Below are positions 3,194 through 55,550 of a stretch of 64,000 nt of DNA, one piece after another (positions within the stretch are counted from its first letter, which is position 1; each line of letters starts with the position of its first letter). Location: NCBI GenBank assembly GCA_030280995.1, contig JASXTE010000007.1, positions 11,189,001 through 11,253,000 of the forward strand, written 5' to 3'. Position numbers and translations under genes: made by a program. Under the pieces are notes generated by a model. That model was not told where the DNA came from, did not search any database, and worked only from the letters and a program-made list of their open reading frames with translations. This DNA comes from Hemileia vastatrix. Taxonomy: Eukaryota > Basidiomycota > Pucciniomycetes > Pucciniales > Zaghouaniaceae.

Positions 3194-3829
3194 TGAACGG
3201 TAATATTAAAATTCTTAAGATCTCACAAATTTTTGGAAACTCAACAATCAATGATTTAGGATTTAGATATGATTATGGAGAAAATAAAGAAATATACAAT
3301 AATAATGATTCTCACGTAGAGTTTTATCACTATTAACTATAAATACGTTTTATAATTTAATTCTAAGGAATGTCGAACCAAAAACCCAGCCCCTTTTATA
3401 TCCTTTACTCCTCCTCGCATTGACCTCATACTCATCCACTATTCCGCACACCACAAACCATTTAAAATATATCCGGTACACCTGGACCCTCCTCACTAAC
3501 ATCCGTTAACCCCTTAATCCTTCAATAACCATTCTGTCCATGCTCACTACCCCTTAATAACCCACAGACATTTCATAAACCTTTTAATGTACTATTATAT
3601 TAACTATTGCGCTGTGTGTCGCTTATTGGGAAAAAGATTAAGACACACTATTGAGAGATTGACTAATTTAGATTTAGAGTTTTAGGCTAGCACGATTGAA
3701 TAGCGAGTACACAAAGGAAAGTTGCAGTTGCTATGGAGAGTTGCTTTCTGCGCTTCGAGTATGGATTTGAACCCTTTAGTATTGATTTAATGAGCTACTT
3801 TTGCCTCGAGTGTCACGTGGCGCGTGACA
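3194..3829 (-). repeat. LTR of family 1 (copy next to gag), 636 bp
   Basis: Read on the minus strand it begins TGTCAC and ends CGTTCA. A second copy of exactly the same length lies at 4907-5542, and the two differ by only scattered substitutions. The first 19 bases in minus orientation form a short palindrome (TGTCAC...GTGACA). It carries a TATA box pointing toward gag, so it is the 5' LTR of the 1-2949 element. Confidence 0.85.
3390..3403 (-). promoter_or_regulatory. TATA box of the family 1 LTR
   Basis: The minus strand reads GGATATAAAAGGGG, a strong fungal LTR core promoter directed toward gag. The same sequence is at 5103-5116 in the second LTR, exactly 1713 bases away, which equals the spacing between the two LTRs. 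Confidence 0.65.
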
Positions 3830-4906: not shown

Positions 4907-5542
4907 TGTACGGTAATATTAAAATTCTTAAGATCTCACGAAGGGTTGGAAACTCAACAATCAAAGATTTAGGATTTAGATATGATTATTGAGAAAATAA
5001 AGAAAGATACAATAATAACGATTTTCACGTAGAGGTTTATCACTATTAACTATAAATACGTTTTATAATTTAATTCTAAGCAATGTCGAACCAAAAACCC
5101 AGCCCCTTTTATATCCTTTACTCCTCCTCGCATTTACCTCATACTCATCCACTATTCTGCACACCACAAACCATTTAAAATATATCCGTTACACCTGGAC
5201 CCTCCTCACTAACATCCGTTAACCCCTTAATCCTTCACTAACCATTCCGTCCATGCTCACTACCCCTTAATAACCCACAGACATTTCATAAACCTTTTAA
5301 TGTACTATTATATTAACTATTGCGCTGTGCGTCGCTTATTGGGAAAAAGACTAAGACACACTATTGAGAGATTGACTAATTTAGATTTAGAGTTTTAGGC
5401 TAGCACGATTGAATAGGGAGTACACAAAGGAAAGTTGCAGTTGCTATGGAGAGTTGCTTTCTGCGCTTTGAGTATGGATTTGAACCCTTTAATATTGATT
5501 TAATGAGCTACTTTTGCCTCGAGTGTCATGTGGCGTGTGACA
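4907..5542 (-). repeat. Second LTR of family 1, 636 bp
   Basis: Same length and orientation as the LTR at 3194-3829, beginning TGTCAC and ending CGTACA on the minus strand. It has lost several CpG sites that the other copy keeps (for example GTCACGTGGCGCG versus GTCATGTGGCGTG). No matching 5-bp target duplication flanks the LTR pair (ATAAT on one side, TTATA on the other). The arrangement is therefore more likely a shared-LTR tandem or recombination product than a simple insertion. Confidence 0.8.
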
Positions 5543-8500
5543 TTATATTTATCCCTTAAATTGATCCCTCCTCTCCACTTCTTCCCCCTTGGCCACATCT
5601 GAAAGTCTTTGCACTTTTTGGGGAGAATAGATTTTTTTCTCCAGGTTCTTTCCATTTATTTTCTGTTTTATTTTCTGCTAATCCTTTTAATTCTAACCCC
5701 AGAAGCACATCATTGTGTACCTTATAGTTTTATCACATGCTTTTTTGTAGTTACTTGTTTTTGTAAGGTGCACAGTTGCTGATTGACCTGGTTTCAGGTA
5801 TGTTTTTTTTCAATTATATCCAAATATTTTTCTCGATATTCTCTTTATCCCTTCCATTTCTCTCTCTTTTCCACTGTTCCCCCCCTGGCTGCATCTGACA
5901 GTCATGGGTAGAATAGAGTTATTTTCAAGTTTTAGCAGCCACTTTGTTGTAGTTATTTTTGTTGTAGGATGCACAGTTGCTAATTTACCTTTTTTCAGCC
6001 TTATTTTGTGCTTAAAAATCTTCATTGATTTTTTTTATAGGATGGTAAGGTCTGATAGGAAATAAGGAATAATGGGAAATAGAAGACAAATGATTTTTTT
6101 GATTTAATATATCTTGTAAAGGACAGCCCATATGAATTTATGGTTTATAGTCAGGAAGAAGAATGATTATTTTGAAGAGTTTTTTAAGTGCTTGGGAGAT
6201 AGTGAATAGAAAATTAGAATGATAGAAAATCAAAATATTAAATAGTAGGGGACAGTTGGTATCCTGTTGGGGTAATAATGTAGCTTCAATCCATATATAA
6301 GGGTGAATCTTGGACCAGAAGCCAATCCCCAACAAGAGAAATTAAAAATTGGTAGCCTGGTGGGCAATTTAGGTCATAGAGGATACTGAAACTAGTATAG
6401 AATGTTTTATCAAAGTTAATATGAGTTGAATGTGCCCTAGCCCTGATAGTATGTTTTTTTATGAGAGAGATAAAGTGAAACAGGTTTCTCCACCAAACCT
6501 GGGGAGCTGCTGACGTGATATATGTGAGATTTAACCAAGTCAATTCAGATGTGAGAGGTAGTATAAGATTATGCAATCTTGAAAAGAAATAAAGTTTGAT
6601 AAGAAAGAAGATAATTCAGGAAGAAATCAGTATTTATACAAGACAAGAAATATTTCTTTGTCATGTAAGTCACATGATATATATCATTACTGAATTTCTT
6701 ATGATGAGTTAATCTGTGTCAAACTCTTTAGGTCAATATAAATCACCAGAAATTATTTCAGAAATATATATTGACCAAATTAAATTTTTTACATATATTA
6801 AAACTACAAGATATCCTCATTAAAAACAAAAATTTGAAAAATTAATGAATGCTTTATTCATGTATGATTGGAACTCCACTTGTCAAAAATATGAATAAAT
6901 TTTTTCTGAAAAATTCAAATAATAGTTTGATAAAAATTATAACACTAGAAAATAGTTAATCTTCCACTGTTACAAGAAAAGTAACCATCTTTCTGACTTA
7001 AGAGATCTGCTTATGGACACAGAAATACATCTAACTCTAGTTCCATGCTACTGATATTTTGTATGGCCATAAATAGACAGGGCACTGAGGGCCTGAATTA
7101 TCCCCTTAAATTTAATACATGTTTTAAAACCCTGCACAAAGTTAAGCTAAAATAAAAGTGGATCTCAACCAAAGTATATAATAAATCTGGTATTGCAAAT
7201 GCCTTGTAATTTTAATTGATTTGTTTTGAAATTCCATAGCACAGGTTCAACTGCCTATAGTCAAAGTATTGTTGGTAAATTCACTAGCTCATTTATATCT
7301 AATAAAATAATAAATTTTTAATACAAAATATTAAATATAACTTTTCCCCTATATTTTTCTCAAGCTCATTTTAACAATTAAAACCACAATTAAATTCACT
7401 TTCTTTCTGTTACAGTAAAAATAACACAGTAAAAATAAATATTCAACTTTACATATTTACAAACCTATTCATCAACTTGAAGAGATGTAGAGTTGTTCCC
7501 TGGGGCACCCCACCCAGCCCCCCTGCAGACAGCCACTGGGACTTACACAATAATTTTCAAGTAAAACTTAGTTAATTCAAATTTTTCACTATTACTTAGC
7601 ATATTTTTATCATATACTCTGAAGTTTTGCATAAACTGATGTTTTTGAATAAATCACTTGAAATCTTCCACAAAAGTTTAACTTGAATTTACCACATCTC
7701 ACAAAAAAGACAAAACTTATTAAATGTAAATGAAGAAAGCTCCAGAAAATGGGAAATAACATTCATTTTATCTGAATAAAAGTTACACCCAATGATCCTA
7801 ATTTTATTGGAAACCAAATTATTCTGATAGTGTATCACAACATGAGGAAACATAAAGCCTCATGTTTGAAAAATTTTACACTCACCCAAATTACTCTACT
7901 AATTGAAATATCATTGACAAATTTTGTTGCTCACCCTATTATGAAAACAGGAAATGTAATGCCTATTCAAAAGGGAAAATGAGACAACATGATTCCTTAT
8001 GATATGAATATGTACCCACATAAACTCAACTGCTGAATGATCACAATTTAATAATAGGATCTATCAATTTCAATGATGAGGAAAAAAGATGGAATCTGAT
8101 AATTGAAGTGATTAGAAAAAAAATGTAGGGAGCAGGAGTAGATACTTTCCATCTGCAACAAAATTACACATCAAAAAATTTCTCATGATGCAGTGCACAT
8201 CTAGTAACATAAATTTAGCAGCTGCACTGGAAAATATGTCGCCCAGTTCAGCTCATTACTTGCACTTAATAACAAAAAATAATTATGTATCTTGATATAA
8301 TTGGTCAATCAAAGGATTAATATTTCCTAATGCTTTGAAATATATTTTGACTTATTTCATTTTTTTACAGAAAAAAATGAGGCAGCATGATGCTGTATTT
8401 TGTCCAATACATGCTAACTCAGATATTCAGAACAAAGGTAGCATTCAAATGTTTTTTGGAACACAATAGTACATACAAGAATATGCACCATGTCATCTTT

Positions 8501-8594
8501 TATCGGGGAAGAAAAGTTCCACCTTTCAAAAGAAAATTGAGTCTTTGCATATAGATGATGCAAAATTTGTCCTCATCTTATGCTTTTTGCCAAT
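5543..8594. other. AT-rich intergenic DNA, no gene recognised
   Basis: No frame reads like a protein. Between about 5560 and 6015 there is an imperfect direct duplication of roughly 230-240 bases; both halves carry a CCCCCTGG or CCCCTTGG...ACATCTGA block and a GCACAGTTGCTGATT-like block. A short GC-rich patch lies near 7494-7545. The rest is simple AT-rich sequence. Confidence 0.5.
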
Positions 8595-9610
8595 TTAATT
8601 GTAAGGGGAATTGAATTTTGCTACATGCATACATGAGGCAACATGTCACCTCATGTATGCATGTAAGTAATACCATTAATTTCTCACTATAAAATAAAAG
8701 AAGAGGAAATGGAAAACTAGAGAAAAATGAGAAAATGTAATTGCATACATGAGGCGACATGTCGCCTCATGTATGCAAAAGCAAGAGTGCTGGGACATTT
8801 CATTTCCGATCCCTCTCCCTGAACTTTTACTATTGCATACATGAGGCGACATTTCGCCTCATGTATGCAATTAAATTCCTTGATCAATTTGAAAATTTTT
8901 TGACTCTCCTTGCATTATTTATTAAGAAGTTACAGCTATTACCTACATGCATACATGACGCGACATGTTGCCTCATCTATGCAATTAACAAGTGCTGTAA
9001 ATAAATTGGTCAGTATTTGAATAGGAGCTCATGTAATTGTATACATGAGGTGACATGTCACCTCATGTATGTAATAGAAAGAGCATTGAAGATATAATGC
9101 AGTAGTTTCATTTTTCTGTCCCCCCTGCTATTGCATACATGAGGCAACATGTTGCCTCATGTATGCAACTACATGAGCTCTGATTCAAATACTGGCCAAT
9201 TTTTTTACAGCACTTGTTTATTGCATACATGAGGCAACATGTCGTTTCATGTATGCGTGTAGGTAATAGCTTTAAATTCTTAATAAATAATTCAAGGAGA
9301 GTCAAAAAAATTTCAAATTGATCAAGGAATGTATTTGCATACATGAGGCAACATGTCGCCTCATGTATGCAATAGTAAAAGTTAAGGGTGAGGGATCGGA
9401 AATGAAATGTCCCAGCACTCTTGCTTTTGCATACATGAGGCGACATTTCGCCTCATCTATGCAATTACATTTTCTCATTTTTCTCTAGCTTTCTATTTCC
9501 TCTTCTTGTATTTTATAGTGAGCAATTAATGGTATTACTTACATGCATACATGAGGCAACATGTCGCCTCATGTATGCATGTAGCAAAATTCAATTCCCC
9601 TTACAATTAA
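8595..9610. mobile_element. Giant palindrome 1 made of ten 36-bp palindromes
   Basis: The two halves are inverted copies centred on 9102.5. Ten units of 36 bp start at 8626, 8742, 8834, 8948, 9038, 9132, 9222, 9336, 9428 and 9544. Each unit is itself a palindrome whose half is TGCATACATGAGGCGACA. Start-to-start spacings are 116, 92, 114, 90, 94, 90, 114, 92, 116, so the layout is mirror symmetric. Outer ends are TTAATTGTAAGGGG and its inverse, so a TTAA lies on each side; this could be a TTAA target duplication of a cut-and-paste element or just part of the inverted arm. There is no coding capacity. It is probably a non-autonomous foldback-like transposon. Confidence 0.75.
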
Positions 9611-11496
9611 CTTGGAACACTTGAACTACCACTTTCAAGTTTATAGGATGTCACTACATTGAACCAAGAAAGACCCGATATTACAAGTTATTGTGCTGTT
9701 TTTACACATATCTTATTCATTGGAAACAAAAATTTTCCCCTTCATTTTACAAGAATCATCTTTGAAAACTTTTACACCGCAATTACCAGAAACCCATTTT
9801 GGAATAACCAAAAATATAAAAGATTGACCAATTTTCCTGTTAATCTTTTGGCATCTGGAGATGTAAGATGCACTCGGTGAAAAATTGGAGTTTTATATCT
9901 TTGGGGATTGTTTTTCTGCACAATTTTTCAAGGTGTAGACATGAAGATATCCCTATTGGAGACAATCAACCTGTAAAAAGAATAGTATACGGAGCACAAA
10001 TAAAAGCTTCATTTAAATCTGTAAGGAGGTACCTTAGTTGTCTTGCTGAGATGAAGAGTCATAGTCTATGAACTGACCTAGGTGATTATGAATTGTAAAA
10101 ATGAATGTGAGACAATTTTAGATGGGAAAAAGGATAGGTGAGGATTTCTGTGTGTTGCAGTTTGGAGTATTACAACAAATATTGGTGGAGATATGAGAGG
10201 CTAAAAGTGATAGATGTATAGTATACCAAATTTAACAGGTGACTGGGCCAAAAAACATATGGGGTGGCTCATAGTAAAGAACTTGATATTTTAGTTAAAC
10301 ATACAACATGAATTGCCCATGTTCTTCAGACAAGATTTGGGACACATTTTAATTATGTTGCTACATGTGAAAATGGGAACCAAAGAGTACCCGTTCCAAG
10401 GATGGTTAGTTCTTGTATTAAATAGATTATGTACTTGGTTGCAATGTAGATTAGCCTGGCAACTTAACATCTGTCTTTTCCTTGGTTCATTCCAGGATGA
10501 CAATTGATGTCGTATATACCAGTTAGTATTTTTTTAGTAATAAAAACATGTTTCATTCCACGACAACAACTGATGTTTTCTCTACAGTGTAAGTAAAAGG
10601 AATTGATATTTATTAATTACTGAAGAATAAAGATTAATTCACAAGAGCTTTAAGTAGGACAGCTAAATCAAGATTCACTACTCACCAAGATATTGTAGAG
10701 GGACAAACTTGAACTCCTACCACCATTTTTGTCTAGTCACATGACTTATTCCCAATTCATCTGTTCTCTATACACAAGTCTCTCCTTATCTTATACCTTT
10801 CATTTCCTTTGATGAGCTTTAGCTCTGCTATTATTCAATTTTATAAATTACAGGTTTTAGTGTAATAAGAACTAGTTCATTCTTTTTTTACCTTTGTTTT
10901 TAGAAACTTGAAAGTATAATTCTATCTTTAGATTGAGACTATAAATTATCTACAATTAAAAAGTGACCAATTCATTTGAAAAATTTCAAATTTTCTGCAA
11001 GAATTCAATTTGAAAATATGATTAAATTATGAATATTACATTAGTTCATCTAGGAAAATTTTAAATGATTAAACTCAACCAAAAGTTTCTTAACAAAAAC
11101 AGGGTATGAGAACTTTCAACATGCTTTCATTGATTTTTGTCCTGGGAAAATCTATGATGACAACCTTCAGAAAGAAAATTAAGAAAAGTTATTTCATGGG
11201 CCTGGAATAAAAGCTGTAAAGGTATTTAGTATGATCAATGTCTTTCCTGAAAAATTAATCTAATTTAGAAATGAGGCACAATTTTTAAAAATCACTCAAG
11301 ATAAAATCAGAGTAAAGCTTCAAAAATAAGCAGTGAGATGTAATTTCTCTATTTTCTTCAGTTCAGTGACACTCACAGTTTTTTTCAGGCATGTAAGTAA
11401 TTTAAGCACAAAAATTCCTTCAAAGGTTACTTCTGATGTTACTTTAAGATACCTGAAAAACCACTTGACTGCAAGTTTCCTAACTTTGACCTGGTG
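9611..11496. other. AT-rich intergenic DNA, no gene recognised
   Basis: No protein-like frame. A short imperfect direct repeat (TTCATTCCAGGATGACAA and TTCATTCCACGACAACAA) lies at about 10488-10570. No LTR is seen here, so the 5' LTR of the retroelement that begins near 11,500 is missing. Confidence 0.45.
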
Positions 11497-11577
11497 CATC
11501 CATCTCCTCAGCCCCATCCTTATCAGGGAGGCAGAAGAAAGAAGGCACAGGGGAAGTTTCCTCCCTTTCCATGGTGA
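11497..11577 (+). pseudogene. Copy D, tail of the first ORF
   Basis: This frame ends H-P-Y-Q-G-G-R-R-K-K...F-P-P-F-P-W and a TGA at 11575-11577. It matches the first-ORF ends of copy E (H-P-Y-K-G-K-K...I-P-W) and copy C (N-P-Y-Q-G-G-R-R). The main gag frame (ATG at 11571) is in the -1 phase relative to it, as in C and E. The A-rich heptamer is not preserved here (AGA AAG AAG). Confidence 0.6.
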
Positions 11578-12635
11578 GTAATTTGTTTAATAAACATGTT
11601 GGTATGTATAATAACAAATCTTCTTCAGTTAATATTGTGGATCCTGGTGAAAGAACAGTTAAACCCTTAAAAAGACAACTTCCTTTAATGAGTATCCCCA
11701 ATGATGTAATTAGCAAATTATCATTTGATGAACCATTACATTTGACTTCTACTTCTTTAATTAATCCTTCTCTTGCAATTAAGAATGATTCTTTTTCCCC
11801 TGATGTCTATACTTTAATTGAGAAAACTTCTGAAGAAATATTTAAAGATACCCTTGATTTTAATGTTGTAAAAGACAAACATTAAAGAAGTGTGTTAATA
11901 CATGAGAGTGATAGATTAAATAATTTGCTCTTGCATTGTAAAGTAAGTTCTTCTGTACAAGATACAGCTTTTTTTAAAATTAAAGAAACCTTGAATATTA
12001 ATCTTAGCCAACAAAAACAAATAAGGAGTGACCATAGATCTATTTCAGATAGGAATATCAATCTACATAAAACCTTGAGTGAATTGAAACCCCTTATTGA
12101 GGAAAATTATTCATTAAAAAGTGATATTAAATCTCTACAAAATGAGTTTAAAAAGCTAAAAAATGATTTTCATGCACTGAGTGCCAAACACACAGTTTCT
12201 GAGGACAGAAATGTTTTATCTCTTGCAAAAATAAATGACCAGATGTTTAAAATTCCAAGGATAGGAAACTATGTGGCTGACCTTCAGGAAAAATTTTCAA
12301 CCTTTACCATCAATAATTATGGTATAAATGAGAATGCTTCCCATAAGCTGCATAAAAATAAAAGAAAAGAACCTGAAAAGAGTTCCTCTTTTCTCCCTCA
12401 TATTTCAGCCATTAAAAAAACTGACAGTGAGTCTGTAAAATCTTTTGCTACTAGAAAAAAATCTTGTGATGGTCATGTACCAGCTGTTTCTGTAAATAAT
12501 GAAATTTCTGAACACCTGGAAAAACTTCAGGAATTATTAATGATAGATAATTCAAACCAAAGGATGGAACATCCCAGTTGTCAGAAAAATTGGCCTAAAT
12601 TGGACCAATATCCTACCTTTGATGGTGATTCTTAA
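11571..12635 (+). pseudogene. Copy D gag, N-terminal and coiled-coil region
   Basis: Opens with M-V-S-N-L, matching the V-S-N-L of copy E shortly after its frameshift site. The region is rich in Lys, Asn and Ser with a likely coiled coil. A TAA at 11883-11885 interrupts the frame and a second TAA at 12633-12635 follows F-D-G-D-S, where E continues S-S-D-W. About 150 bases further on, a short deletion (about 14 bases relative to copy C, W-N-D-W-K-K-L-I region) changes the frame before 12,793. Confidence 0.75.
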
Positions 12636-12792
12636 TCTTATTGGTAACACTTTATCCAAAGAATTGATAATTTAAAGATATCTTATAAACTACCTGATGA
12701 GGAAATTTTTTCTAAGCTAATTTCTTTATTTTCCAATGTAGCCTTGATGTGGTATGAATCTGTTCTTTTAGATAACAATTATTATACATGGA

Positions 12793-14667
12793 ATGATTGA
12801 GAATCAGTTTGGTGGCTCAAAATTCAGGTTGGCTCAGCAAAGACTGTATGAGAATACTAGATATGTATCCTCCTCTGTTGAAAAACCCATTTTTTTACTT
12901 ATGAAAGTAACAAGAATCCTGAGAGAAATTGATCCAAAGATGGATTATGATATTTGGAGAGATAAAATCTTTTATAAATTACCTAATTCTCTTAGGGATT
13001 TAATTGTAGCTAGAACTGAGAATGTAAGGGAAAATTCTTCTTTTATTAATATAGGTAATGAAGTACTTCTCAACCATAGATATGAACCAAAGAATTACCC
13101 TGGAAGATCTTATCATGATCAAAATAAACCCTCTACAAAGCCCCCAGAAAAACCTGGAAAACCCTCTGCCCCAGTTGCACCTAAAAAATATGCAACAAAT
13201 ACTTGTTATAAATTTAACAAATCATGGAAAAAGGGTCATATTTGTGACAAGAAAATTCATCTTGTTGAACAAAATGAAGACACTGATGAAGCTGAAATTG
13301 ATATCAATAATTCTTCTAGTGACTGTGAAAGTAATATCTCCTATGACAATGAATCTGTTAAAGATGTTTTAATGTTGGAACAGGATGTCCATTATTTAGA
13401 TAATATATCTGAAGAATGTGTATTGGATTTATCTTCAGTAGAAAATGCTGAAATAATTAAAGATATTACTAACAAGTCTATAGCCATATCTCCCTTGAAG
13501 GCACCTGTTATCATTAATGGTAAAAATGTTGATGTAGTTCTTGACTCTGGTTCTGGAGGAAGTGTAGTGTCTGAAAGAGCCTTAGCTTCAGTAGATAAGG
13601 ATTTTTTGGGTAAATTGTTACCTATGAGTTCTGAAAAATGGAGAGGGTATGTTTCTACCTTGTGTCCCATTGGCAAATACAAAATCTCTGTATTCTTCAA
13701 ATATAATGGTAGTTTTGTCAGAGCTATTTGTGAATTTTTTGTCATGAAAAATGATAATTTAAGCAATTGGTTTATTATGGGTAATGATATTTTAACCATG
13801 TTTGGTGTGAAATTGGACCCAGCAAATAATTGCTTCACCTTGGGATTGAATGGCAAGAGAAATTTCAAAATTTCCTCCTCTAGAACGCCTTCTGGGCATC
13901 TGTTAAAGTCTTGTAACTCCCTGATTCAGTGTAAAGGCAGACCAACAAATGAAATGGATGATTTATTAATTGAAATAAATACTGCTTCTTTTGGTGATCA
14001 GTTAACTAGTGAACAAAAGGATTCTATAATTGCCTCAATTACCTCCTTTCCTATGGCTTTTGCTCATGGTTCTCATGTCTTAGGAAGTGTTCAGGAAGAA
14101 ATTAAATTTACCTTATCCTGTAACTTGAGTGATATTCCTCCTAGACTTAAGAAAAAACCATATCCTGATTCTCCAACAAAAAGAAAAGATATTGAAGATA
14201 ATATTTCCACATTATTAAAAATGAATATCTTTGAGAAAGTGGATGTAACCCCTAAATATTGTGTCATCTCCCCAGTCTTGATTTCTTATGAAAAGGATAA
14301 GGCTAGATTATGTGGAGATTACAGAGGATTAAACACATATACTGTTGATGATATTTATCCTTTACCCAGAATGAATTCAATACATGCTACCTTGCAAGGT
14401 GAAAAATTTATTAGTTGTCTGGATGGTAACAAAGGGTATCATCAAGTTCCATTTGAGAAAAATTCTCAGAATTTTTTACTTATTGCTACTCATATGGGAA
14501 TATATAAGTATGTTAGAATGCCATTTGGCCATAAAAATGCACCTTCATTTTTCCGAAAATTCATGGATAACACTTTCCATCAGGAAATAATTGAAGGATG
14601 GCTTATGGTGTATATTGATGATATCATAGTTTTTCTAAAACTGTTGATTAACATATGGTTCATTTAA
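12793..14667 (+). pseudogene. Copy D gag C-terminus, protease and reverse transcriptase
   Basis: A 624-codon open frame. It holds the end of the capsid (Q-F-G-G-S-K-F-R-L), a zinc knuckle in which the second Cys is Phe (C-Y-K-F...K-K-G-H-I-C, near 13205), and an aspartic protease (V-V-L-D-S-G-S-G-G, near 13535). The RT follows with L-C-G-D-Y-R-G-L-N, C-L-D-G-N-K-G-Y-H and Y-I-D-D at 14611-14622. One base is missing from the T run after V-F, so the frame leaves the RT at about 14,635 and ends at 14,667. A family copy would read V-F-S-K-T here. Confidence 0.85.
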
Positions 14668-15242
14668 GTAGGGTTTTCCAAAAAATGGATGAAATTAATA
14701 TGACCTTGTCCTTGATAAAGTGTAAATTTGGTTTTCAATCTTTGAAAGTCCTTGGCCATGTTGTGTCAGGCCTACAAATTTCTGTAGACCACAACAAAGT
14801 TGCTGCAATTCAAAATATGAAAGCACCAACTTCTGTAAGAGAAATACAAAGTTTTTTGGGTATGTGTGGCTATTATAGACAGTATAATAAAAACTATAAG
14901 GTCATAGCTTTGCCTCTTACTAAACTAACTAGGAAAGATTTTGCATTCCTCTGGAATATTGACTGTCAAAAAGCTTTTGATGCATTAAAATGTTGTTTAA
15001 TGACAGCTCCTATCTTAGCTCTCCCAGATTTCAACAAACCATTTATCCTGTATACAGATGCTAGCTTTGTTGGGCTAGGTGCTGCCCTTCACCAGAAACA
15101 AATTATTAATGGTAAATCATCAGAGGTTGTAATTTGTTATATTTCAAGAACCTTGAGAAATAGTGAATTGAAATATGGTGCCACTCAATTAGAGTGCTTA
15201 GCAGTGGTTTTTGGGCCCTATAAATGCTTCATTACTACCTAG
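14655..15242 (+). pseudogene. Copy D RT thumb and RNase H
   Basis: Contains V-L-G-H-V-V-S-G-L, S-F-L-G-M-C-G-Y-Y-R-Q-Y (RT connection), then RNase H with L-Y-T-D-A-S and K-Y-G-A-T-Q-L-E-C-L-A. A small indel at about 15,210 (F-G-P-Y-K where relatives have W-A-L-E-K) throws the frame, and the chain continues in the 15,224 frame. Confidence 0.8.
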
Positions 15243-17035
15243 ATGACCAAAAGTTTGAATTGGTAACTGACTGTAGTGCTGTGAAGTCCCTCTTAAACCT
15301 AAAAACACCTAATAGACATATGTTCAGGTGGCAACTTGCTGTTCAAGAATACAGAGGAAGAATGAAAATTATCCATAGGGCTGGAAATTTTCACTCCAAT
15401 GTTAATATGCTGTCAAGATTGTCTCTGCAAAATAATGACTCCAATACTGCTTATGTACCTGAAGATGATAATGTTCATATCCATGGTATATTTATAGTTG
15501 ATATGGAAGAAGTGTTATTACAATTAATTCTGGATTCATATGATAAAGATTCTGATTTAAATAAATTAGTTACTATCTTAAATGATCCTAAGAATGCTTC
15601 AATTCAAGCATTGATTAAAACTCTTCCTGAAAAGTATCAAAATGCTTTGCTTAAAGGAAAGTTTTCTATTGAAGATGGATATATATATTATAGAAGGAAG
15701 ATTACTAATGTAATTTTAATTCCTCCTTCTATGGAAGAAACAATCCTAAAGCTTTGTCATGATGACATATTAGCTGGTCATTTCGATCTTGAAAAGACAT
15801 TTATTAGGATCAAAAACTCCGCCTGGTGGGCTAATATGTCTGAAGATACAAAATTATATGTTGAATCTTGTGATTCCTGCCAGAAATCTAAAATGCTGAC
15901 AGGTAAAAGAGCAGGGTTATTAAAACATATTGAAGCACCTGATTCTCCTTGGCTAATCATCGACATGGATTTTGTCACTGGTTTTCCTGTAGCAGGTCAA
16001 GACAGTTATAAATCTTGTTGGGTAATAGTGGATAGATTCACAAAAATGTGCAAGTTTATTCCCACCCACAAAGATGTATCCGCAAAGGAATTGTCTTTCT
16101 TATGGTGGACTTACATTTTCAATATTATTGGATTTCCAAAAGCCATTATCTCTGATAGAGATCCAAAATTTACTTCTGAGTTTTGGACCTCTTTGATGGA
16201 TATTTGTGGCTGTGAGTTAAATTTGTCTACAGCTCACCATTCTCAGACTGATGGTCTAGCTGAAAGAATGATTCAAACTCTGGAATATATTATTAGAAAG
16301 TATTGTGCCTTTGGATTAGAATATAAAGAAAATGACAGATTTACTCATGACTGGGTCACTCTATTGCCTGGTCTTGAATTTGCATATAATAGCACTGTTC
16401 ATTATGTCACTGAGAAAAAGCCTTTTGAGATTTGGTTAGGTTATGTCCCAAACACTCCTTCTCAGATTCTCAATAATAAATTACCTAAGTTGGAACTACA
16501 CCCTGGTGTAAAATCTTTTATGCAAATGCAACAGCTATTCAGAAAACATGCTCAGAGCTGTATTGATAAAGCATTTGAATATGAAAAGAAAAGATGGGAT
16601 AAATCCCATAAAAAATACACATTTAACAAGGGAAATGAAGTGTTGATATCTACTGTCCATTTCAATTTACAAGTTAACAACAAATTAAAAGATTCTTTTG
16701 TAGGATTATTTGTTGTTAAAAGAATGGTTGAAGATAATGCAGTAGAATTTGTATTTTATTCTATATATGATAGGAAACATCCTGTCTTTCCCATTTCTTT
16801 GCTTAAGCCTTATACTTCCAACAGTGACTTATTTCCCAAAAGAAGGGGAAGACCTAAGAAAAACCCTCAGGAAGTCACAGAAACTGCAGAAATTGATAAA
16901 ATTCTCAATGATAGAATTATCACTTCTGAAAGAGGTACTGAATATTTATTGAGATATTAGAACAAATCATCTGAAGATGATGCATGGATACCTGGCAAAG
17001 AAATTTCAAATCTTCCTACTCTGTTAAAGAAGTAG
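15224..17035 (+). pseudogene. Copy D RNase H end, integrase and chromodomain
   Basis: Open from 15,224 to a TAG at 16,958-16,960, and readable beyond it to TAG 17,033-17,035. Integrase has the H-x-C2 zinc site (C-H-D-D-I...G-H-F, E-S-C-D-S-C), then the DDE core: D-M-D-F-V-T-G, S-D-R-D-P-K-F-T and D-G-L-A-E-R-M-I-Q-T-L-E. The C-terminus (E-I-D-K-I-L...E-Y-L-L-R-Y...D-A-W-I-P) is a chromodomain-like module, which in chromoviruses directs integration to marked chromatin. The TAG at 16,958 lies inside this module. Confidence 0.85.
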
Positions 17036-26122: not shown

Positions 26123-27352
26123 TGTGGCATTCCACATCTGGGTATGCCACTTAGGTTTATTTTTGAAGATTAGTATCAATTTTCTGGATTATAAGGCTGG
26201 ATATTTAGAATTTTGGAATTGTTTTACTTGATTTAGTGACTTATAGTATTATTGGTGGATATGGTGTGCTGATTGAATGACCACTGAGCTCCAGTGCTCC
26301 GGTGTGCTCCAGTGCACTCCAGTTTTCTCCAGTGATTTTCTGGTGCAAAATTGAAGTGTACTGGAAAAATTCTGTCATTTTGGCCAAGTTTGGTCATGGT
26401 GGCAAAATTATCTCACTGTGGAAAATTTAGCTTAATCTGGAAAAATTAGCTCATTGTGGGAAAAAGAGCTCATTGTGGCAAAATTTTCTCACAATGGGAA
26501 AGTCTGGTCAATTTGTTAAAGTTTGGTCACTGGACCAAAGTTTGGTCACTGTGCCAAAGTTTGGTCACTGTGCCAATGTTTGGTCACTGTGCCAATGTTT
26601 GGTCACTGTGCCAATGTTTGGTCACTGTGCCAAAGCTTGGTCACTGTACCAAAGTTTGGACACTGTACCAAATTTTGGTGACTGTGGAATAATTTGGCTA
26701 TTGTGGCAAAATTTGGTTAGAATTTATTATGCTTATTAGATCAATAGTTTATTTTAGATCCTATGCATGTAGGGTATTGTTGGAAAGGTCAGGAGTAGGA
26801 GAATCAGATAGAAAGGGGGGAATCTTAGTCTTCTACATGTTTCTGTCTCTTTAGTTTTGAGTAGGAGGATCTTTTTGATAATTAACAACCATTATTCATT
26901 TTTTTTATTACTCAAAAAAATTAAATAAAATTATAATACCCTTATAACATTTATATTTTTCATAACACTTTTGAAATACAGCACAACAATTATATTTTCA
27001 TCACATATAGGGTATCATTGGAAGGTCTCCATCTCAGGGACTTGTTTTTTATTGTTAACTCATTTAAAATCAAATCTTTAAAAAACATTTAAGTCTATCT
27101 TTTCAGATCTTTCACTAGTACACCTTATTTGTTGTCATCAGTATTTCTTTCTCAAAAGATGCTATATCTAAATCTCAATAAGCATTTATATAAATCAGAG
27201 TTTCATATATATATTTCAATCATTTCAAGTAGACTAGAGAGTTTAGTTAATTGAACAACCCTTATTTTACTTAGAATGACAGGTTTTTCTTCTGTTTATC
27301 CAACTCCTTTGGATTCTGCTTACAGAAAGGCAACTGTAAGAGTCTACCTACA
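26123..27352 (+). repeat. 5' LTR of element A
   Basis: Begins TGTGGCATTCCACATCTGG and ends GTCTACCTACA, as does the right copy at 36715-37833. The first 30 bases form a small hairpin (GTGGCAT...ATGCCAC). The copies differ in length mainly through the number of 19-bp repeats. Confidence 0.85.
26518..26712 (+). repeat. 19-bp tandem repeats in the element A LTR
   Basis: About nine units of GTTTGGTCACTGTGCCAAA, the outer ones diverged. The right LTR has about five at 37070-37165. Each unit has TTTGG and CCAAA arms around CACTGTG. Variable number in U3 suggests a protein-binding enhancer array, which is inference. Confidence 0.8.
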
Positions 27353-36714: not shown

Positions 36715-37833
36715 TGTGGTATTCCACATCTGGGTATGCCACTTAGGTTTATTTTTGAAGATTAGTATCAATTTTCTGGATTATAAGGCTGGATATTTGG
36801 AATTTTTGAAGTGTTTTACTTGATTTAGTGACTTATAGTATTATTGGTGGATATGGTGTGCTGATGGAATGGCCACTGAGCTCTAGTGCTCTGGTGAGCT
36901 CCGGTGATTTTCCAGTGCAAAAGCAAAGTGTACTGGAAAAATTCTGTTATTGTGGCCAAGTTTGGTCATGGTGGCAAATTTAGCTCACTCTGGAAAAAGT
37001 AGCTCATTATGGAAAAATGAGCTCATTGTGGCAAAAATTGCTCACAATTGGAAAGTCTGGTCACTGGGTTAAAGTTTGGTCACTGTGCCAAAGTTTGGTC
37101 ACTGTGCCAAAGTTTGGTCACTGTGCCAAAGTTTGGTCACTGTGCCAAAGTTTGGTGACTGTGGAAAAATTTGGCCATTGTGGCAAAATTTGGTTAGAAT
37201 TTATTATGATTATTAGATCAATAGTTTATTGTAGATCCTATGCATGTAGGGTATTGTTGTAAAGGTCAGGAGTAGGAGAATCAAATAGAAAGGGGGGAAT
37301 CTTTGTCTTCTACATTTTTTTGTCTCTTTAGTTTTGATTAGAAGGGTCTTTTTGAAAAATTAACAGCCATTATTCATTTTATTTATTACTCAACAAAATT
37401 AAAAAAAATCATAATACCCTTATAACATTTATATTTTTCACAACACTTTTGAAATACAACATGACAATTATATTTTCATCACATATAGGGTATCATTTGA
37501 AATTTCTCCATCTTAGGGACTTGCTTTTTATTTTTAACTCATTTTAAATTAAATCTTTATAAAAGATATTAGCCTATCTTTTCAGATCATTCACTGGTAC
37601 ACCTTAATTGTTGTCATCAGTATTTCTTTCTCAAAAGCTGCTATTTCTAAATCTCAACAAGCGTTCATATAAATCAGAGCTTCATATATATATATTTCAA
37701 TCAATTCAAGTATACTGGAGAGCTTAGTTATTTGAACAACCCTTATTTTACTTAGAAGGACAGGGTTTTCTTTGGTTTATCCAACTCCTTTGGATTCTGC
37801 TTACAGAAAGGCGACTTTAAGAGTCTACCTACA
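36715..37833 (+). repeat. 3' LTR of element A
   Basis: Begins TGTGGTATTCCACATCTGG and ends GAGTCTACCTACA; colinear with 26123-27352 apart from fewer 19-bp repeats and scattered substitutions. The following ACGTACATC resumes the leader of copy C. Confidence 0.85.
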
Positions 37834-39182: not shown

Positions 39183-40993
39183 TAAGTACCATTTCTTGTA
39201 ACTGATTCAGTTCCTTCAGGTAATTCTGGAAGAGGAGATGAGACTTTGAGACCAGTAGAGGCTGAGAACAGTAGACAAATTGCTCAATATTCTAATGTAT
39301 CTAATTCTTTAGTTTTAATTGCTACTTCAATGATAAATTCGGATATGGCTATTATTAATGAGACACTTGATCCTGAGTTTTATGAGAGTCTGGAAATTTA
39401 TTCTGTTTCACTATTGAGAAATACTCCAGATGTAGAAAACATTAATGATGAATATTTGAGGGATTTTATTGCGAAACAAAATCATATAATGAACAATATG
39501 CAATTGACTCAGAAATATAATAGTTTGTTAACTGAACAGGGTTATCAAGAATTGAGGAGTGAGTTACAGAGAGTTTATGATGATTTGTTTCATTACAAAG
39601 TAACTCATGAAAAGAAAGTTGCTTTATGGAAAAATATCAACAATGATTTGTCTAAATTAAAAGGTACTGTGTCCATCTGTTTCCAGGAGCTAGAGGGACA
39701 TAAGATGAACTTAGAAACATTGAGTAACCATTATTCATCTTTACAAAATAAAAATCGATTATCTTTTGAAACCATAAATGAGAATTTATCTGGTATTCCA
39801 AGAGTAAAGACTAGGTTAACAACCATTGAGGAGAAATTTCATTCATTGTTATATAATCAAAAGTTTTCTGAAATTTCTTTGAAAAAACCTGCTGAGCAAG
39901 ATACTCCAATTTTACATGTTCCTAGTTCATCTAAAGAAAAATTAGTTCCAGAAATATCTGTGGATATCACTGATTTTCCATCAAAAATTGATGATATACC
40001 TGGATCATCCACAGAAGGATTAAACAATGAAATTACTGCCCAATTGGAGAAGTTAGAGATCCTTCTCACTCAGAAACAAGCTTATAACAAGGAGACTACT
40101 TCAAATCAAAAGAATTGGTCAAAACTTGACCAGTATCCAACATTTGATGGTGACTCTTCCTCTGATTGGAAACAGTTCATTTGCAGAATTGATAATCTAA
40201 AAAATTCTTACAAACTCCCAGATGAGAAAATTGTGTCAAAATTAAACTCTTTATTTACCAATATAGCCCTAATGTGGTATGAATCTTTTCTCTTGGATAA
40301 AAATGACTACTCATGGGGAAATTGGAAAAAATTAATTAAAGCACAATTTGGTGGTGATCAGTTTAGATTATCTCAACAAAGGCAATATGAAAAAACCAGA
40401 TATAGCTCTTCTACTGAAAAACCTATTGAGTTCTTGATGGTGAAATTTTAAGGGCAATGGACCCAGAGATGGAGTTTGAATTATGGAAGGACAGGATCCT
40501 CTATAAATTACCTATGTCTCTGAGAGACTTAATAGTTTCTAGGACTGAGTTCTCAAGGGAACCTTCTTCTTTCATTAATACTTGTAATGAGATCCTTCTT
40601 GACAACAAGTATGATGCTAGAAGATTAATTTATAGAACTTCATTGGAGAAAACCTCCAATTACCAACAAAAACCTGTGGAAAAGGTTGGTAAATCATCTG
40701 CCCCTGTTGCATCCAAAAAGTATGCAACAAATACTTTCTTCAAATGCAGTAAGCCTTGGAAAAAAGGCCATGTTTTTGACAAGGAGATAGATCTTGTTAA
40801 GCAGACAGAGGAACATACTGATGACACAATAGCACTGGATAAAACCTCAAGTTATTGTGCCATCAATATCTCATATGAATCTCACCAGGAAATATTAATG
40901 CTGGAAGAGGATATTCATTATTTAAATAATATTGATATTGAGAATAATGATTTATCTACAGTGAAGGATGCTGAGAGCATAAAAAAAACTTGA
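39183..40993 (+). pseudogene. Copy C gag
   Basis: The main frame 39,246-40,451 carries a long helical region (about 39,400-39,870), then the capsid (N-W-S-K-L-D-Q-Y-P-T-F-D-G, W-Y-E-S-F-L, A-Q-F-G-G). One T is missing at about 40,447 (E reads L-N-K-I-L-K where C has V-K-F then TAA). The second frame, 40,457-40,993, includes the degenerate zinc knuckle T-F-F-K-C...G-H-V-F in which two Cys have become Phe. CpG is zero in the 600 bases 40,021-40,620. Confidence 0.8.
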
Positions 40994-41029
40994 GGAATTC
41001 TTAATTATTATTGCCCCTCCCAAGATACC

Positions 41030-42372
41030 AGTATTGATCAATGAAAAAAATATTGAGGTTGTCTTAGATTCTGGAGCTGGAAGAAGTGTAGTATCTGAAA
41101 AAGCACTTGTTTCAGTGGACCAAGATTATAAATCAAAACTAATGCCTATCATTTCTGAGAATTGGAAAGGTTATGGCTAAGTTTAGTCCCCCATTGGTAA
41201 ATACAAAGCCACAAGATTTTTCAAATATAACCATGGTTTTGTAAGAGCTATATGTGATTTTGTTGTCATGAAAAATGATAAATTGAGTAGTTGTTTCATT
41301 GTGGGAAATATCATTTTAACCAAATATGGAATAAAATTAGATCCTTCAAACCAATGCTTCACAATGGGGATGAATGGGAAGAGAAAATTTAAAATTTACT
41401 CCCCCAAGAAATTTTTAACACCAGGATTGAACGTATGTCATTCTGTAGTTCAAGATAAAGGAAGATCTACAAAAGAAATACCTGCCCTTTTGTCTGAAAT
41501 TGACAATGCTTCTTTTGGAGAACAACTTTCTGGTGAGGTTAAAGATTCAATCATTAAATAGATCAAATCTTTTCCTATGGCCTTTGCTCATGGATAACAT
41601 GAATTAGGATTGGTAAAAGAATAAATGAAGCTTTCATTATCTTTCCCATTGATAGAAATACCACTTAGTTTAAAAAAATGGTTATACAGCTTCTCCCATA
41701 AAGAGAAAAGATATTGAAGATAAAATCTCTACCCTTTTAATAATGAATATTATTGAAAAGGTAGTTGAAACACCTAAACATTGTGTTATCTCACCGATCC
41801 TAACTTCTTATGAGAAAGATAAGGCCAGGTTATGTGGTGATTATACAGCATTGAGCACTTATACTGTTGATGATATCTATACTTTACCCAAAATTAGCTC
41901 TATACTTGCTACCCTACAAGGTGCTAAATATATCAGCTGTTTTGATGGTGTTAAGGGATATCACCAGGTACCTGTTGAGAAGAACTCTAAGAATTTTCTG
42001 ATGATTGCTACTCATATGGGTATTTATAAGTATATTAGGATGCTATTTGGCGTTAAAAATGCCCCTTCAGTTTTTCAAAAAGTTATGGATAATACATTCC
42101 ATCAAGAAATAATTGAAGCATGGCTGATGGTTTATATTGATGATATCATTATATTCTCATAAACATTTGAGGACCATCTTAACTACCTGTGTAAAGTTTT
42201 CCATAAGATGGATGAGATAAATATTATACTAGCTTTGAAGAAATGCAAATCTGGTTTTCATTCCTTAAAAGAGCTTGGTCATGTTGTCTCAGGGTTACAA
42301 ATATGTCTTGACCAAAACAAAGTGGCAGCCATACAACAGGGGAAGGCTCCTACAACAGTTAGAGAGCTCCAG
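41030..42372 (+). pseudogene. Copy C protease and reverse transcriptase
   Basis: The protease active site V-V-L-D-S-G-A-G lies near 41,060. 41,268-41,561 gives the protease tail. After stops and small deletions the RT resumes at 41,743: Y-E-K-D-K-A-R-L-C-G-D-Y, C-F-D-G-V-K-G-Y-H, and Y-I-D-D at 42133-42144. A TAA at 42160-42162 replaces Lys of the family's F-S-K-T. Further RT thumb sequence continues to 42,380, where a TAA replaces Leu in S-F-L-G-M-C. Confidence 0.8.
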
Positions 42373-42384
42373 AGTTTTTAACAA

Positions 42385-43254
42385 ATGTGTGGATACTATA
42401 GACAGTATATTAAAAATTACAAAGTCATAGCATTACCCCTTACACAACTTACTAGGAAAGATGTTGCTTTTTTCTGGAACAGTGAAAGACAAAGAGCTTT
42501 TGGCACTATGAAACATTGTTTGATTTCAGCACCAATTCTTGCTTTACCTGATTTTAATCAACCATTTGTTTTATACACTGATGTCAGTTTTATTGGTCTT
42601 GGTGCTGCCCTCCATAAGAAACAAGTGATGAATGATAAAGTATCAGAAGTAGTAATTTGTCATATTTCAAGAACCTTGAGAAATAGTGTTTTGAAATATG
42701 GTGCCACTCAACTAGAATGTTTAGCAGTAGTGTGGGCTCTAGAGAAGCTACATTATTACCTGGATGACCAGAAATTTGAACTTTTCACTGACTGCAGTGC
42801 AGTTAAATCCCTACTAAACTTTAAAACACCTAACAGACATATGTTCAGATGGCAACTGCCTGTTCAAGAGTATAGGGAGAGAATGACAATAATTAATAGG
42901 GCTGGTATTGTTCACTCAAATGTGAATATGTTATCAAGGTTACCTTTGCCAAATGATGACTCAAATCCTGCATATGTTCCTGACAATGAAATTATTCATA
43001 TTCATGGGATATATGAGGTTGATATGGAGGAAGAGCTATTACAGTTTATTCTGGATCCATATGATAAGGACACTGACTTAAAAAATTTATGTTCCATATT
43101 AAATGATCCAAAGAATGCTTCAATAAAAGCATTAATTAAAACACTTCCACCAAAGTACCAGAAGGCTTTGGAAAAAGGAGAATTTTCAATTGATGAAGGC
43201 TACCTCTATTATAGACAAAAGTTAAGTAATGTTATTTTATTCCCCCTTTTATGA
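42385..43254 (+). pseudogene. Copy C RT connection and RNase H
   Basis: Opens M-C-G-Y-Y-R-Q-Y and continues through RNase H with L-Y-T-D-V-S (Ala to Val after the catalytic Asp), L-E-C-L-A-V-V-W-A and F-T-D-C-S-A-V. A 289-codon frame, the longest undamaged stretch of pol in this copy. The end overlaps the next frame by four bases because of a small indel in the integrase N-terminus. Confidence 0.8.
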
Positions 43255-44573
43255 ATGAGATCATCTTAAATTTTTTTCATGATGAAATATTGGCTGGAAA
43301 TTTTGATCTTGAAAAAATAATGATCAGAATTGAAAAAACTGCTTGGTGGGTTAATATTTCTGAAGACACCAAACTATATGTTGAATCCTGTGATTCTTGC
43401 CAAAAATCAAAAAGATTGACTGGTAAAAGAGCTGGATTTATGCAACATATTGAATCTCCTGATGCACCATGGCAGATAATAAACATGGATTCTGTAACAG
43501 GACTACCCATTGATGGGAAAGATAGTTATAACTCTTGTTGGGTTATTTTGGATAGATTCACAAATATGTGTAAATTTATCCCCACCCACAAGGATGTTTC
43601 CACTAAAGAATTAGCGTTCTTATGGTGGTCTCATATGTTTAATACGGCAGGTTTTCCTAAAGCCATAATCTCTGAAAGTGACCCTAGATTTACTTCTGAA
43701 TTTTGGATTTCCCTGATGGATGTTTGTGGTTGTGATCTGAAACTTTCTACTGCCCCTCACCCCCAAACTGATGGATTAGCCGAAAGAATGATTCAGACTT
43801 TAGAGGACATGATAAGAAGGTATTTTGCCTTTGGCCTTGAGTACAAAGACAATGACAGATTCACTCATGATTGGGTTACCCTACTTCCTGCGTTGGAATT
43901 TTCTTATAATAGCACTGTTCATTCTGTTACTTAGAAAAAGCCTTTTAAGCTCTGGTGGGGATATCTTCTAAATACTTTTGCCCAAATTCTCAATAATAAA
44001 ATTCCGAAATTGGATTTACATCCAGGTGTAAAATCTTTTTTTCAAATGCAACAACTTTGCAGAAGTCATGCTCAAAAATGTATTGAAAAATCCTTTGAAT
44101 ATGAGAAGAAGATATGGGATAAATCCCATAAAGAATACACTTTTAAAAAGGGTGATGAAGTACTGATTTCTACTTTCCACTTCAATTCACAAGGTAATAA
44201 AAAATTGAAAGACCCATTTGTAGGTCCATTTTTTGTCAGAAGAATGGTTGGTGATAATGCAGTTGAAGTTATTTTGTATACTCCATATGACAGAAAACAT
44301 CCTGTTTTTCCAATATCTCTTTTGAAACCTTACATATCCAATAGTGATTTATTTCCCAAAAGGAGGGGAAGACCAAAGAAGACCCCTAATGAAATCACTG
44401 AGACAGCAGAAATTGATAAGATTTGAAATGAAAGAATAGTTACTTCTGAAAAAGGCACAGAATACCTATTGAGATTCAAGAATAAATCTTCTGAATATGA
44501 TTCTTGGATACCTGGGAAGGAGATATCTAATCTTCCTACTCTTCTAAAGAGATATAAAAAGAAAAAATCATAG
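43251..44573 (+). pseudogene. Copy C integrase and chromodomain
   Basis: The zinc site has F-H-D-E-I...G-N-F (second His lost) and E-S-C-D-S-C. The core has N-M-D-S-V-T-G, S-E-S-D-P-R-F-T (D-R-D changed to E-S-D) and D-G-L-A-E-R-M-I-Q. A TAG at 43,932-43,934 breaks the core. The frame resumes by 44,010, and a TGA near 44,424 breaks the chromodomain, which reads on to TAG 44,571-44,573. Confidence 0.8.
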
Positions 44574-53694: not shown

Positions 53695-55550
53695 CTATTC
53701 TGTTTCCCTATTAAGAAATACTCCAGATGTAGCTAACATTAATGATGAATATTTGAGGGATATTATTGCTAAACAAAATCATATAATAAACAACATGCAA
53801 TTGACTCAGAAATATAATAGTTTGTTAACTGAACAGGGTTATCAAGCATTGAGGAGTGAGTTACAGAGAGTTTCTGATGATTTGTTTCATTACAAAGTAA
53901 CTCATGAAAATAAAGCTGCTTTATGGAAAAATATAAAGAATTTTTTGTCTAAATTAAAAGATACTGTGTCCATCTGTATCCAGGAGCTAGAGGGACATAA
54001 GATGAACTTAGAAAGATTGAGTGACCATTATTCATCATTCCAAAATAAGAGCCAGTTATCATTTGCAACCGTCAACAAGAGTTTATCTAGTATTCCAAGA
54101 GTAAAAACTAGGTTAACAACCATTGAAGAAAAATTGAGTTCATTTTTACATGATCAAAAGCTTTCTGAAATTTCTTTGAAAGAACCTGTTTTGCAGTATA
54201 CCCCAATGGTACCTGTTCTTAGTTAATCCAAAGTAAAATTAGTGCCAGGAATGCTTGTTCATACCATTGAGTTTCCATCAAAACTTGATGATGTACCTGG
54301 ATTATCCACAGAAGGATTTAACAATGATATTACTTCCCAATTGGAGAAGTTACAGCTTGTTTATCTAGTATTCCAAGAGTAAAAACTAGCTTAACAACCA
54401 TTGAAGAGAAATTGAATTCATTTTTACATGATCAAAAGCTTTCTGAAATTTCTTTGAAAGAACCTGTTGTGCAGTATACCCCAATGGTACCTGTTCTTAG
54501 TTAATCCAAAGTAAAATTAATGCTAGAAATGCCTGTTCATACCACTGAGTTTCCATCAAAACTTGATGATGTACCTGGATCATCCACAGAAGGATTAAAC
54601 AATGATATTACTGCCCAATTGGAGAAGTTACAGCTCCTTCTCACTCAGAAACAATCTTGTAATAAGGAGAATACTTCAAATTGAAATAATTGGCCAAAAC
54701 TTGACCAGTATCCAACATTTGGTGGTGACTCTTCCTCTGATTGGAAGAAGTTCATTTGCAGGATTTATAATCTAAAAAATTCTTACAAACTCCCAGATGA
54801 GGAAATTGTGTCAAAATAAATTTCTTTATTTATCAATGTAGCCCTAATGTGATATGAATCTGTTCTCTTGGATAAAAATTACTACTCATGGGATGATTGG
54901 AAAAATTAATTAAAGCACAATTCAGTGATTTCAAGTTTAGATTAGCTCAACAAAGGCAATATAAAGAAACCAGATATAGCTCTTCTACTGAAAAACCTAT
55001 TGAGTTCCTGATGAAACTTGTGAAAATCTTGAGGGAAATGGACCCAGTTATGTAGTTTTAGTTATGGAAGGACAGGATCCTCTATAAATTATCTATGTCT
55101 CTAAGAGACTTAATAGTTGCTAGGACTGAGTTCTCAAGGGAACCTTCTTCTTTCATTAATACTTATAATGAGATCCTTCTCAACAACAAGTATGATGCTA
55201 GAAGAATCATTTCTGGAACTTCATTGGAGAAAACCTCCCATTACCAACAAAAACCTCTGGAAAAGTTGGGTAAACCTTCAGAACCTGTTGCACCCAAAAA
55301 GTATGCAAAAAACACTTGCTTTAAATGTAGAAATACTTGGTAGAAAGGCCATGTTTGTGACAAGAAGATAAATCTTGTTGAAAATACAGAGGAATATGCT
55401 GATGAACCAATAACCCTAGATGATACTTCAAGTGATTTTGCCAGCAATATTTCATACAAGTCTTACCAAGAAATTTTAATTCTGGAAGAGGATATTCATT
55501 ATTTAAACAATATTGATATTGAGAAAAATGATTTATCTACAGTGGAAGTT
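53695..55550 (+). pseudogene. Copy F: gag fragment of the D/C/E family, interrupted by copy E
   Basis: Homology to copy C begins at Y-S-V-S-L-L-R-N-T-P-D and follows its gag through the helical region and the capsid (D-Q-Y-P-T-F-G-G-D near 54,705) to a zinc knuckle C-F-K-C-R-N-T-W-stop-K-G-H-V-C (55,318-55,362). It ends at D-L-S-T-V-E, 55550, where the LTR of copy E begins. Many stops. An internal tandem duplication of 278 bp (54081-54358 repeated from 54359) is peculiar to this copy. The remainder should lie beyond the right edge of the window. Confidence 0.8.
54081..54636 (+). repeat. 278-bp tandem duplication within copy F gag
   Basis: GTTTATCTAGTATTCCAAG starts at 54081 and again at 54359. 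The two units match across the whole length to TTGGAGAAGTTACAGCT, with scattered substitutions (for example GGATTATCCACAG versus GGATCATCCACAG). Confidence 0.8.

Follow-up and report, generated by a model that had tools for sequence, protein, structure and literature searches.

The analyzed stretch of 64,000 nucleotides, hereafter referred to as the window, corresponds to C42:11189001-11253000 of the source genome. Gypsy-type gag/pol stretches are located at 11892-16960, 39246-43934 and 58363-62301, the last of which is a 1,312-aa frame with reverse transcriptase and RNase H domains. A comparison of the gypsy protein with database proteins yielded 15 relatives of 23-33% identity. Two separate minisatellites (26499-26717 and 37052-37194) share a common 19-bp unit, AAAGTTTGGTCACTGTGCC, and a near-identical 278-bp tandem duplication (54081-54635, 95% matches) overlaps a gypsy-like reading frame. 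The subject of this study is a block of ten 36-bp palindromic boxes. Box P2 (8742-8777) and box P6 (9132-9167) are perfect palindromes with 36 of 36 self-symmetric positions, while 28 to 34 positions are self-symmetric in the others, i.e. P1 (8626-8661, 32/36), P3 (8834-8869, 34/36), P4 (8948-8983, 30/36), P5 (9038-9073, 32/36), P7 (9222-9257, 28/36), P8 (9336-9371, 34/36), P9 (9428-9463, 32/36) and P10 (9544-9579, 34/36). The perfect or near-perfect palindromes listed in an initial annotation and their unit spacings of 116/92/114/90/94/90/114/92/116 were recomputed and borne out. The boxes are contained in a 1-kb inverted repeat whose left arm (8590-9077, forward strand, 488 nt) is 93% complementary to the right arm (9128-9615, reverse strand, 488 nt), with a gap of 50 nt between the arms. 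The block had been described as mirror-symmetric with spacers that are inverted copies of each other. This holds for the arms and for all non-central spacers (partner identities of 1.00, 0.98, 0.99 and 0.89 in the family consensus), but the centre is formed by a non-palindromic 58-nt spacer, S5 (9074-9131), without an inverted partner. A TTAA motif is present at both block ends (8595-8598 and 9607-9610), as had been noted.

The 14-mer half-box (up to two mismatches) has 20 matches in the window, 19 inside the block and one at position 7857. As only 0.31 matches are expected and the maximum in 100 shuffles was 2, a chance origin is excluded. Folded as single-strand DNA, one box forms a hairpin of -18.7 kcal/mol (z -9.5) and the centre spacer S5 folds no better than shuffled sequences. 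Cruciform formation by the block is possible. Additional degenerate boxes were scored against 200 Markov shuffles of a 6-kb region, for which the maximum was -7.2 and the 99% level -11.4. A degenerate box at 7835-7870 (score 4.0) exceeds all 200 shuffles and is also found in L039 and L051. A second one at 8548-8583 (score -9.8) ranks above the 99% level and below the shuffle maximum, and candidates at 7972 and 8370 fail to exceed the 99% level. All of these positions lie to the left of the left TTAA, and the array therefore extends past the border that had been assigned to it.

Searches of the source genome (747.6 Mb, 791 contigs) were employed to align the block with potential further copies. 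The block as a query gave 111 matches (40 of 595 candidates scored) and its end sequence was found at 37 forward and 37 reverse places. The 38 loci obtained from both searches (L001-L038) collapse to 28 distinct sites. All 28 fetched sites have the same flanks (both sides were read at 27 of them and a single side at L016). The block is bordered by ...TTTTTGCCAAT and, at its opposite end, by CTTGGAACACTTG..., and it can run in either direction with respect to the query, which is itself nearly symmetric. Elements that duplicate TTAA, such as piggyBac MITEs, carry this motif at both ends of an inverted repeat, and the block had been proposed to be a non-autonomous transposon of this kind, for which empty sites with a single TTAA should be found. 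A joined empty site with a single TTAA (up to three mismatches) had no match in 747 Mb. Given the same flanks at all sites and zero empty sites, the TTAA is not a target duplication, and membership in a TTAA-duplicating (piggyBac-type) group was rejected. In contrast to piggyBac MITEs, the TTAA of the block was not duplicated on insertion and the true ends are found elsewhere. Moreover, boxes one to six are retained together with the left flank in a sister subfamily (L055-L057), and no TTAA is present at the border of L055, the sole sister copy in which this border was read. What remains of the initial reading is that the block is DNA transposon sequence and that its boxes have the appearance of recognition sites; the borders of the mobile unit were misplaced. 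A separate observation concerns L058 (C502:14046900-14049200), in which the palindrome block is split at about 450-1222 by a relative of the LTR-like sequence located at 3.0-5.5 kb of the window.

To define the element that carries the block, left and right stretches were fetched around eight further sites. Long sequence beyond the block is shared by every right stretch and by seven of the left ones; in the remaining site, L053, the left match comprises only 163 bp. The outer ends are inverted repeats of about 39 bp, CACCAGGTCAAAAGTTAGACGACTTGCAGTCAAGTGGTT... and its complement, and these terminal inverted repeats (TIRs) start with CACCAGGTC. The block is separated by about 5.1 kb from the left TIR with its target duplication and by 1.9 kb from the right one, and a complete element measures about 7.4-8.0 kb (7,365-7,988 bp, the lower values belonging to copies with a block of 422 bp). 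Both ends were in hand for six of the eight sites (L045/L046 is without a right end and L053/L054 without a left end). Four of these six complete copies are flanked by exact 3-bp target duplications (GTG, AAA, CTA and TCT), one has a 4-bp match (TATA) without a 3-bp match and one has neither. Mismatched left-right pairs served as a control and gave no 3-bp match in 30 comparisons. At the sites examined, the array is thus located inside a TIR-bounded element. Exact TIRs facing each other at distances of 1.7-2.2 kb were also observed (C19:4847078-4848974, C34:29123739-29125485 and C42:26743373-26745528), which suggests short non-autonomous derivatives of the same family.

The remaining part of this element in the window spans 5543-11496 on the forward strand and is common to at least seven other sites up to position 11496. 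Its right TIR (11456-11496, reverse strand) is a degraded copy of CACCAGGTCAAAAGTTAGACGACTTGCAGTCAAGTGG, to which the left TIR of L039 could be aligned by BLAST at 88% identity (11496-11456, minus strand). A gypsy element at 11571-16960 was considered as the owner of the block and dismissed, as the shared element ends at 11496. The window copy is without the left 2.03 kb (approximately) of complete copies, position 2030 of the L039 element corresponding to window position 5542. Of these missing 2.03 kb of L039, only three parts have a counterpart in the window, namely the TIR (11456-11496), the sequence at the break (5542) and 67 bp at 5818. The broken left edge is adjoined by an LTR-like pair of 636-bp direct repeats (3194-3829 and 4907-5542, 96% identical) with TG...CA ends.

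Decayed reading frames are present on the minus strand of complete copies, near the left end. A transposase search had been recommended and led to such a decayed remnant, which sits at one end of the larger element. Pfam gave no significant match for the transposase fragments of the window family and only DUF4218 at an E-value of 0.14 for the relative L059, and a search for protein homologues returned a single metagenome protein of 37% identity. In the source genome, the 150 relatives of a 110-aa fragment that were scored among 3,281 candidates are 81-100% identical to it. The distance between the transposase remnant and the block is a constant 3.83 kb at nine block sites compared by eye. A search with PF02992 (Transposase_21), in which the best 150 of 2,198 candidates were scored, placed all 150 over the cut-off, and no matches to PF02992 were detected in 14 control genomes. 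Comparison by eye revealed that at least 22 of the 150 listed PF02992 matches sit 1.3-1.5 kb upstream of relatives of the 110-aa fragment on the same strand. A TIR follows about 920 bp beyond the fragment, as in the coordinate pairs C2:32098624 and 32099546 or C42:17903257 and 17904181. The order of the element is TIR, transposase (reading towards that TIR), array and TIR, which places the array upstream of the transposase gene. Transposase_21 matches with 781-aa open frames (e.g. C34:19189746, C579:34233564 and C26:60481424), longer than the window-family relatives, were also observed and possibly represent another CACTA lineage.

The features of the element were compared with those of CACTA (EnSpm/CMC) transposons, the structure of which is outlined in PMC8978399. 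A Transposase_21 (tnp2-type) gene is connected to the element by the linkage described above and not by a Pfam match of the remnants themselves. A 3-bp target site duplication is present in the four complete copies listed above, and subterminal repeats in direct and inverted orientation were seen on one side only. The TIR starts with CACCA instead of CACTA. Given the transposase linkage and this CACCA start, the family was filed as CACTA-like and not as strict CACTA. Box arrays are found 0.5-2.6 kb from a TIR at the places compared; the array of the window family lies 1.9 kb from the element end, which is far for a subterminal array, and was seen on the right side only. Neither a binding protein nor a complete intact element was seen among the copies read, in which the transposase is decayed.

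The box is not restricted to this family. A box pattern of 34 positions, four of them free, with up to two mismatches was found at 4,563 places on each strand of the source genome and the reversed control at none; viral contigs and prokaryote genome contigs contained no match to the pattern either. A 30-nt core of spacer S3 (up to three mismatches) occurs at 67 places, and those with compared coordinates are inside blocks of the window family. The half-site (up to one mismatch) was detected at 4,632 and 4,605 places on the two strands (9,237 in total, 2.02 per palindrome), and all 100 listed half-sites fall into listed box clusters or within about 300 bp of listed boxes, so that the full palindrome is regarded as the unit. 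Placements of boxes and TIRs, of which the genome has about 4,560 and 1,080, respectively, rest on the first 100 exact places and are partial counts. Ten clusters, all on C2 below 21.65 Mb, are made up by the first 50 boxes among the matches listed. In this region, a cluster was found no more than 3 kb away from three of four exact TIRs among the matches listed (at distances of 0.5, 2.6 and 0.5 kb); the exact TIR at C2:10169681 has no box nearby among the matches listed. Each of the three relatives of the 110-aa fragment listed for the region is accompanied by a cluster on the 5' side, the distances being about 19, 4.7 and 7.2 kb, and no box is near the PF02992 match C2:3659998 among the matches listed. 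An 801-bp stretch located 0.4-1.2 kb inside the end of a transposase-bearing element of about 17.8 kb contains no box; this stretch ends short of the depth of the window-family array.

Arrays with other spacers allowed us to analyze how the mirror arrangement varies. L060 and L062 contain 10 and 12 boxes, respectively, with arms that are 87-89% complementary and spacings of 92, 92, 92, 96, 129, 130, 129, 95 (93), 92 (, 92, 92). L063 belongs to the same family. L061 represents a third array type with spacings of 221, 103, 222, 96, 222 and 102 and an inverted self-match of 84%. A spacer-by-spacer comparison located the mirror centres in S5 (58 nt) for the window family, S6 (94 nt) for L060/L062 and S4 (60 nt) for L061. 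Of 758 cross-family comparisons, the top 24 included no pair of these centre spacers. The window spacers M4 and M6 resemble N4 and N7 of L062, N7 consisting of two merged spacers in a comparison in which one degenerate L062 box was left uncalled. The left array border region of the window (8546-8664, forward strand, about 120 bp) is common to other spacer families and was read in four other-family arrays. Positions 4-124 of L060 match 1452-1570 of L001 at 82%, and L055, L062 and L063 are similar; positions 551-664 of L061 match 864-975 of L055 at 78%. Spacers S1-S5 and the left flank are common to the window family and its sister subfamily L055-L057 (84-86% identity), whose arrays continue with unrelated spacers and have no mirror. 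The presence of these unmirrored arrays beside the mirrored window family thus indicates that the mirror differs between close relatives. L055-L057 fit a progenitor type, a fit that does not prove a change from unmirrored to mirrored arrays. As the arms of the window family are 89-100% identical in the consensus, its mirror probably formed shortly before the family spread.

Individual copies differ in the number of boxes. Between 10 and 3 boxes per block were found in 28 distinct block sequences brought into one orientation (27 sites and the split block L058). P5 is absent from five and P6 from 11 of 27 aligned copies, lost singly or together by 34-bp deletions. Block lengths that differ by 34 or 68 bp had raised the possibility of mobile 34-bp palindrome insertions, yet the alignment shows each event to be a deletion between 8-bp direct repeats (CTCATGTA and TACATGAG), one within the box and the other beside it. 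The ideal box and the consensus of the spacers served as references for divergence, with L058 left out and with the inherited changes in P5, P6 and P10 included for the boxes; divergence amounts to 1.7% in boxes and 1.9% in spacers outside CpG and to 24% and 22%, respectively, at CpG. This similarity of boxes and spacers and the high values at CpG point to CpG methylation and no constraint after insertion. Hairpin-templated self-correction was rejected as a main force, as non-CpG double changes occur twice with 1.1 expected (three with 0.7 expected in other families). All five of these double changes are complementary. The symmetric TG..CA class at CpG is in excess (15 observed with 5.4 expected, and 3 with 0.4 expected in other families), which is largely due to the inherited P5 form. 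Without boxes 5, 6 and 10, TG..CA is observed 0 times with 0.6 expected and CA..TG twice with 2.7 expected. A weak effect of hairpin self-correction is possible.

The reading that we consider probable is that the block represents the array of subterminal recognition sites in a CACTA-like (Transposase_21) DNA transposon family, that its boxes serve as protein sites and that its mirror arose by recurrent fold-back between boxes. Each 36-bp palindrome would be recognized, as a site with two-fold symmetry, by a DNA-binding protein that the element itself encodes, either TNPA-like or the transposase, and the bound protein may pair the element ends, regulate the promoter or do both. As each box is a palindrome, any pair of boxes constitutes an inverted repeat, a property that could account for the mirror symmetry. 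At a break or a stalled fork, one box would anneal to its neighbour on the same strand with S5 as the loop; the 3' end would then copy the array backwards, generating an inverted duplicate that became fixed shortly before the window subfamily spread. The position of S5 between P5 and P6 agrees with this proposal, as an inverted duplicate surrounds a non-palindromic loop between inverted repeats, and other centres are present in L060/L062 and L061, where separate events around different centre spacers may have taken place. More tentatively, the box could be both a recognition site and an amplification primer, so that the array would grow by repeated mirror doubling in a series of box, box-spacer-box, half array and whole array. 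If true, this doubtful but possible extension would describe a self-amplifying nested-palindrome design that has arisen repeatedly and spread to over 4,500 boxes in a single genome.

The same arrays could be produced by boxes without any binding function, i.e. by a hairpin that spreads selfishly within these elements through slippage and fold-back and whose uniformity reflects young copies or recombinational homogenisation. The gain and loss of boxes (10 to 3 per block) speak for such a hairpin, the 34-bp losses between 8-bp direct repeats are what slippage across a hairpin predicts, and boxes drift like spacers after insertion. However, the box is the same in families whose spacers mostly fail to align, which needs either constraint on the box or efficient homogenisation, and the signs of self-correction reported above are weak. 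We therefore regard this explanation as unlikely. An equally low probability is assigned to the idea that ordinary box-to-box recombination built the arrays and that mirror symmetry itself was selected, e.g. because bound complexes need a symmetric array. Such recombination is clear from copies with four and three boxes and mirror arrays recur in three families, but the unmirrored L055-L057 arrays and lopsided deletion derivatives are each present at several sites.

The two remaining explanations concern the nature of the block as a unit. An independent non-autonomous TTAA transposon that inserted into the larger element and was then carried along would explain the TTAA at both block ends. Such an origin is very improbable in light of the uniform flanks (other flanks at 0 of 28 sites), the missing empty site and TTAA-free border of L055, the degenerate boxes outside the TTAA and the box arrays of other families that occupy the corresponding place. 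Even more remote is an assembly artefact at the inverted repeat, for which no support was found and which was discarded, as the block is present at 28 sites distributed over many contigs and its copies have substitutions and deletions of their own.

Palindromic subterminal repeats are already known in plants, and the closest counterparts are the asymmetric subterminal arrays of the soybean CACTA elements Tgm/Tgmt*, which form palindromes or stem-loops; in the right border, 24 repeats in 732 bp are able to form 12 palindromes (PMC2613891, in the parts considered here). Shared with Tgm/Tgmt* are a subterminal palindrome-forming array, the 3-bp target duplication and a tnp2-type transposase. According to the same parts of that source, short repeats of Tgm/Tgmt* pair across into stem-loops, whereas each unit described here is a contiguous 36-bp palindrome; the array reported here also differs by a spacing of about 90-220 bp, its mirror symmetry, the CACCA start of the TIR and probably the kingdom of its host. 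Maize En/Spm likewise has a repeated motif near its ends, and the binding of TNPA to these subterminal repeats provides a model for the function proposed here; the motif is 12 bp long, and the portion of PMC2613891 considered mentions neither 36-bp palindromes nor mirror arrays for En/Spm. In yeast, breaks that lie close to inverted repeats give rise to inverted duplications through fold-back priming (PMC10622511, in the part considered). In both cases, a short inverted repeat and its non-palindromic loop lie at the centre of the inverted duplication, but the yeast events covered there are chromosome-scale and come from repair mutants, whereas the fold-back proposed here would span about 1 kb in a transposon and is deduced from sequence alone. 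In the titles and abstract openings covered, which include few subscription journals, no description of a contiguous 36-bp box in thousands of copies and of recurring mirror arrays was found.

For annotation, the block serves as a warning that TTAA on both sides of an inverted repeat can be mistaken for a target duplication. Although long palindromes are usually unstable, a 36-bp palindrome was kept and multiplied to several thousand copies, apparently within transposon recognition arrays. These arrays constitute natural records of inverted duplication with several centres and of hairpin deletion between 8-bp repeats, two processes that are normally studied with engineered constructs, and they suggest how a CACTA-type element can build a cis-acting array.
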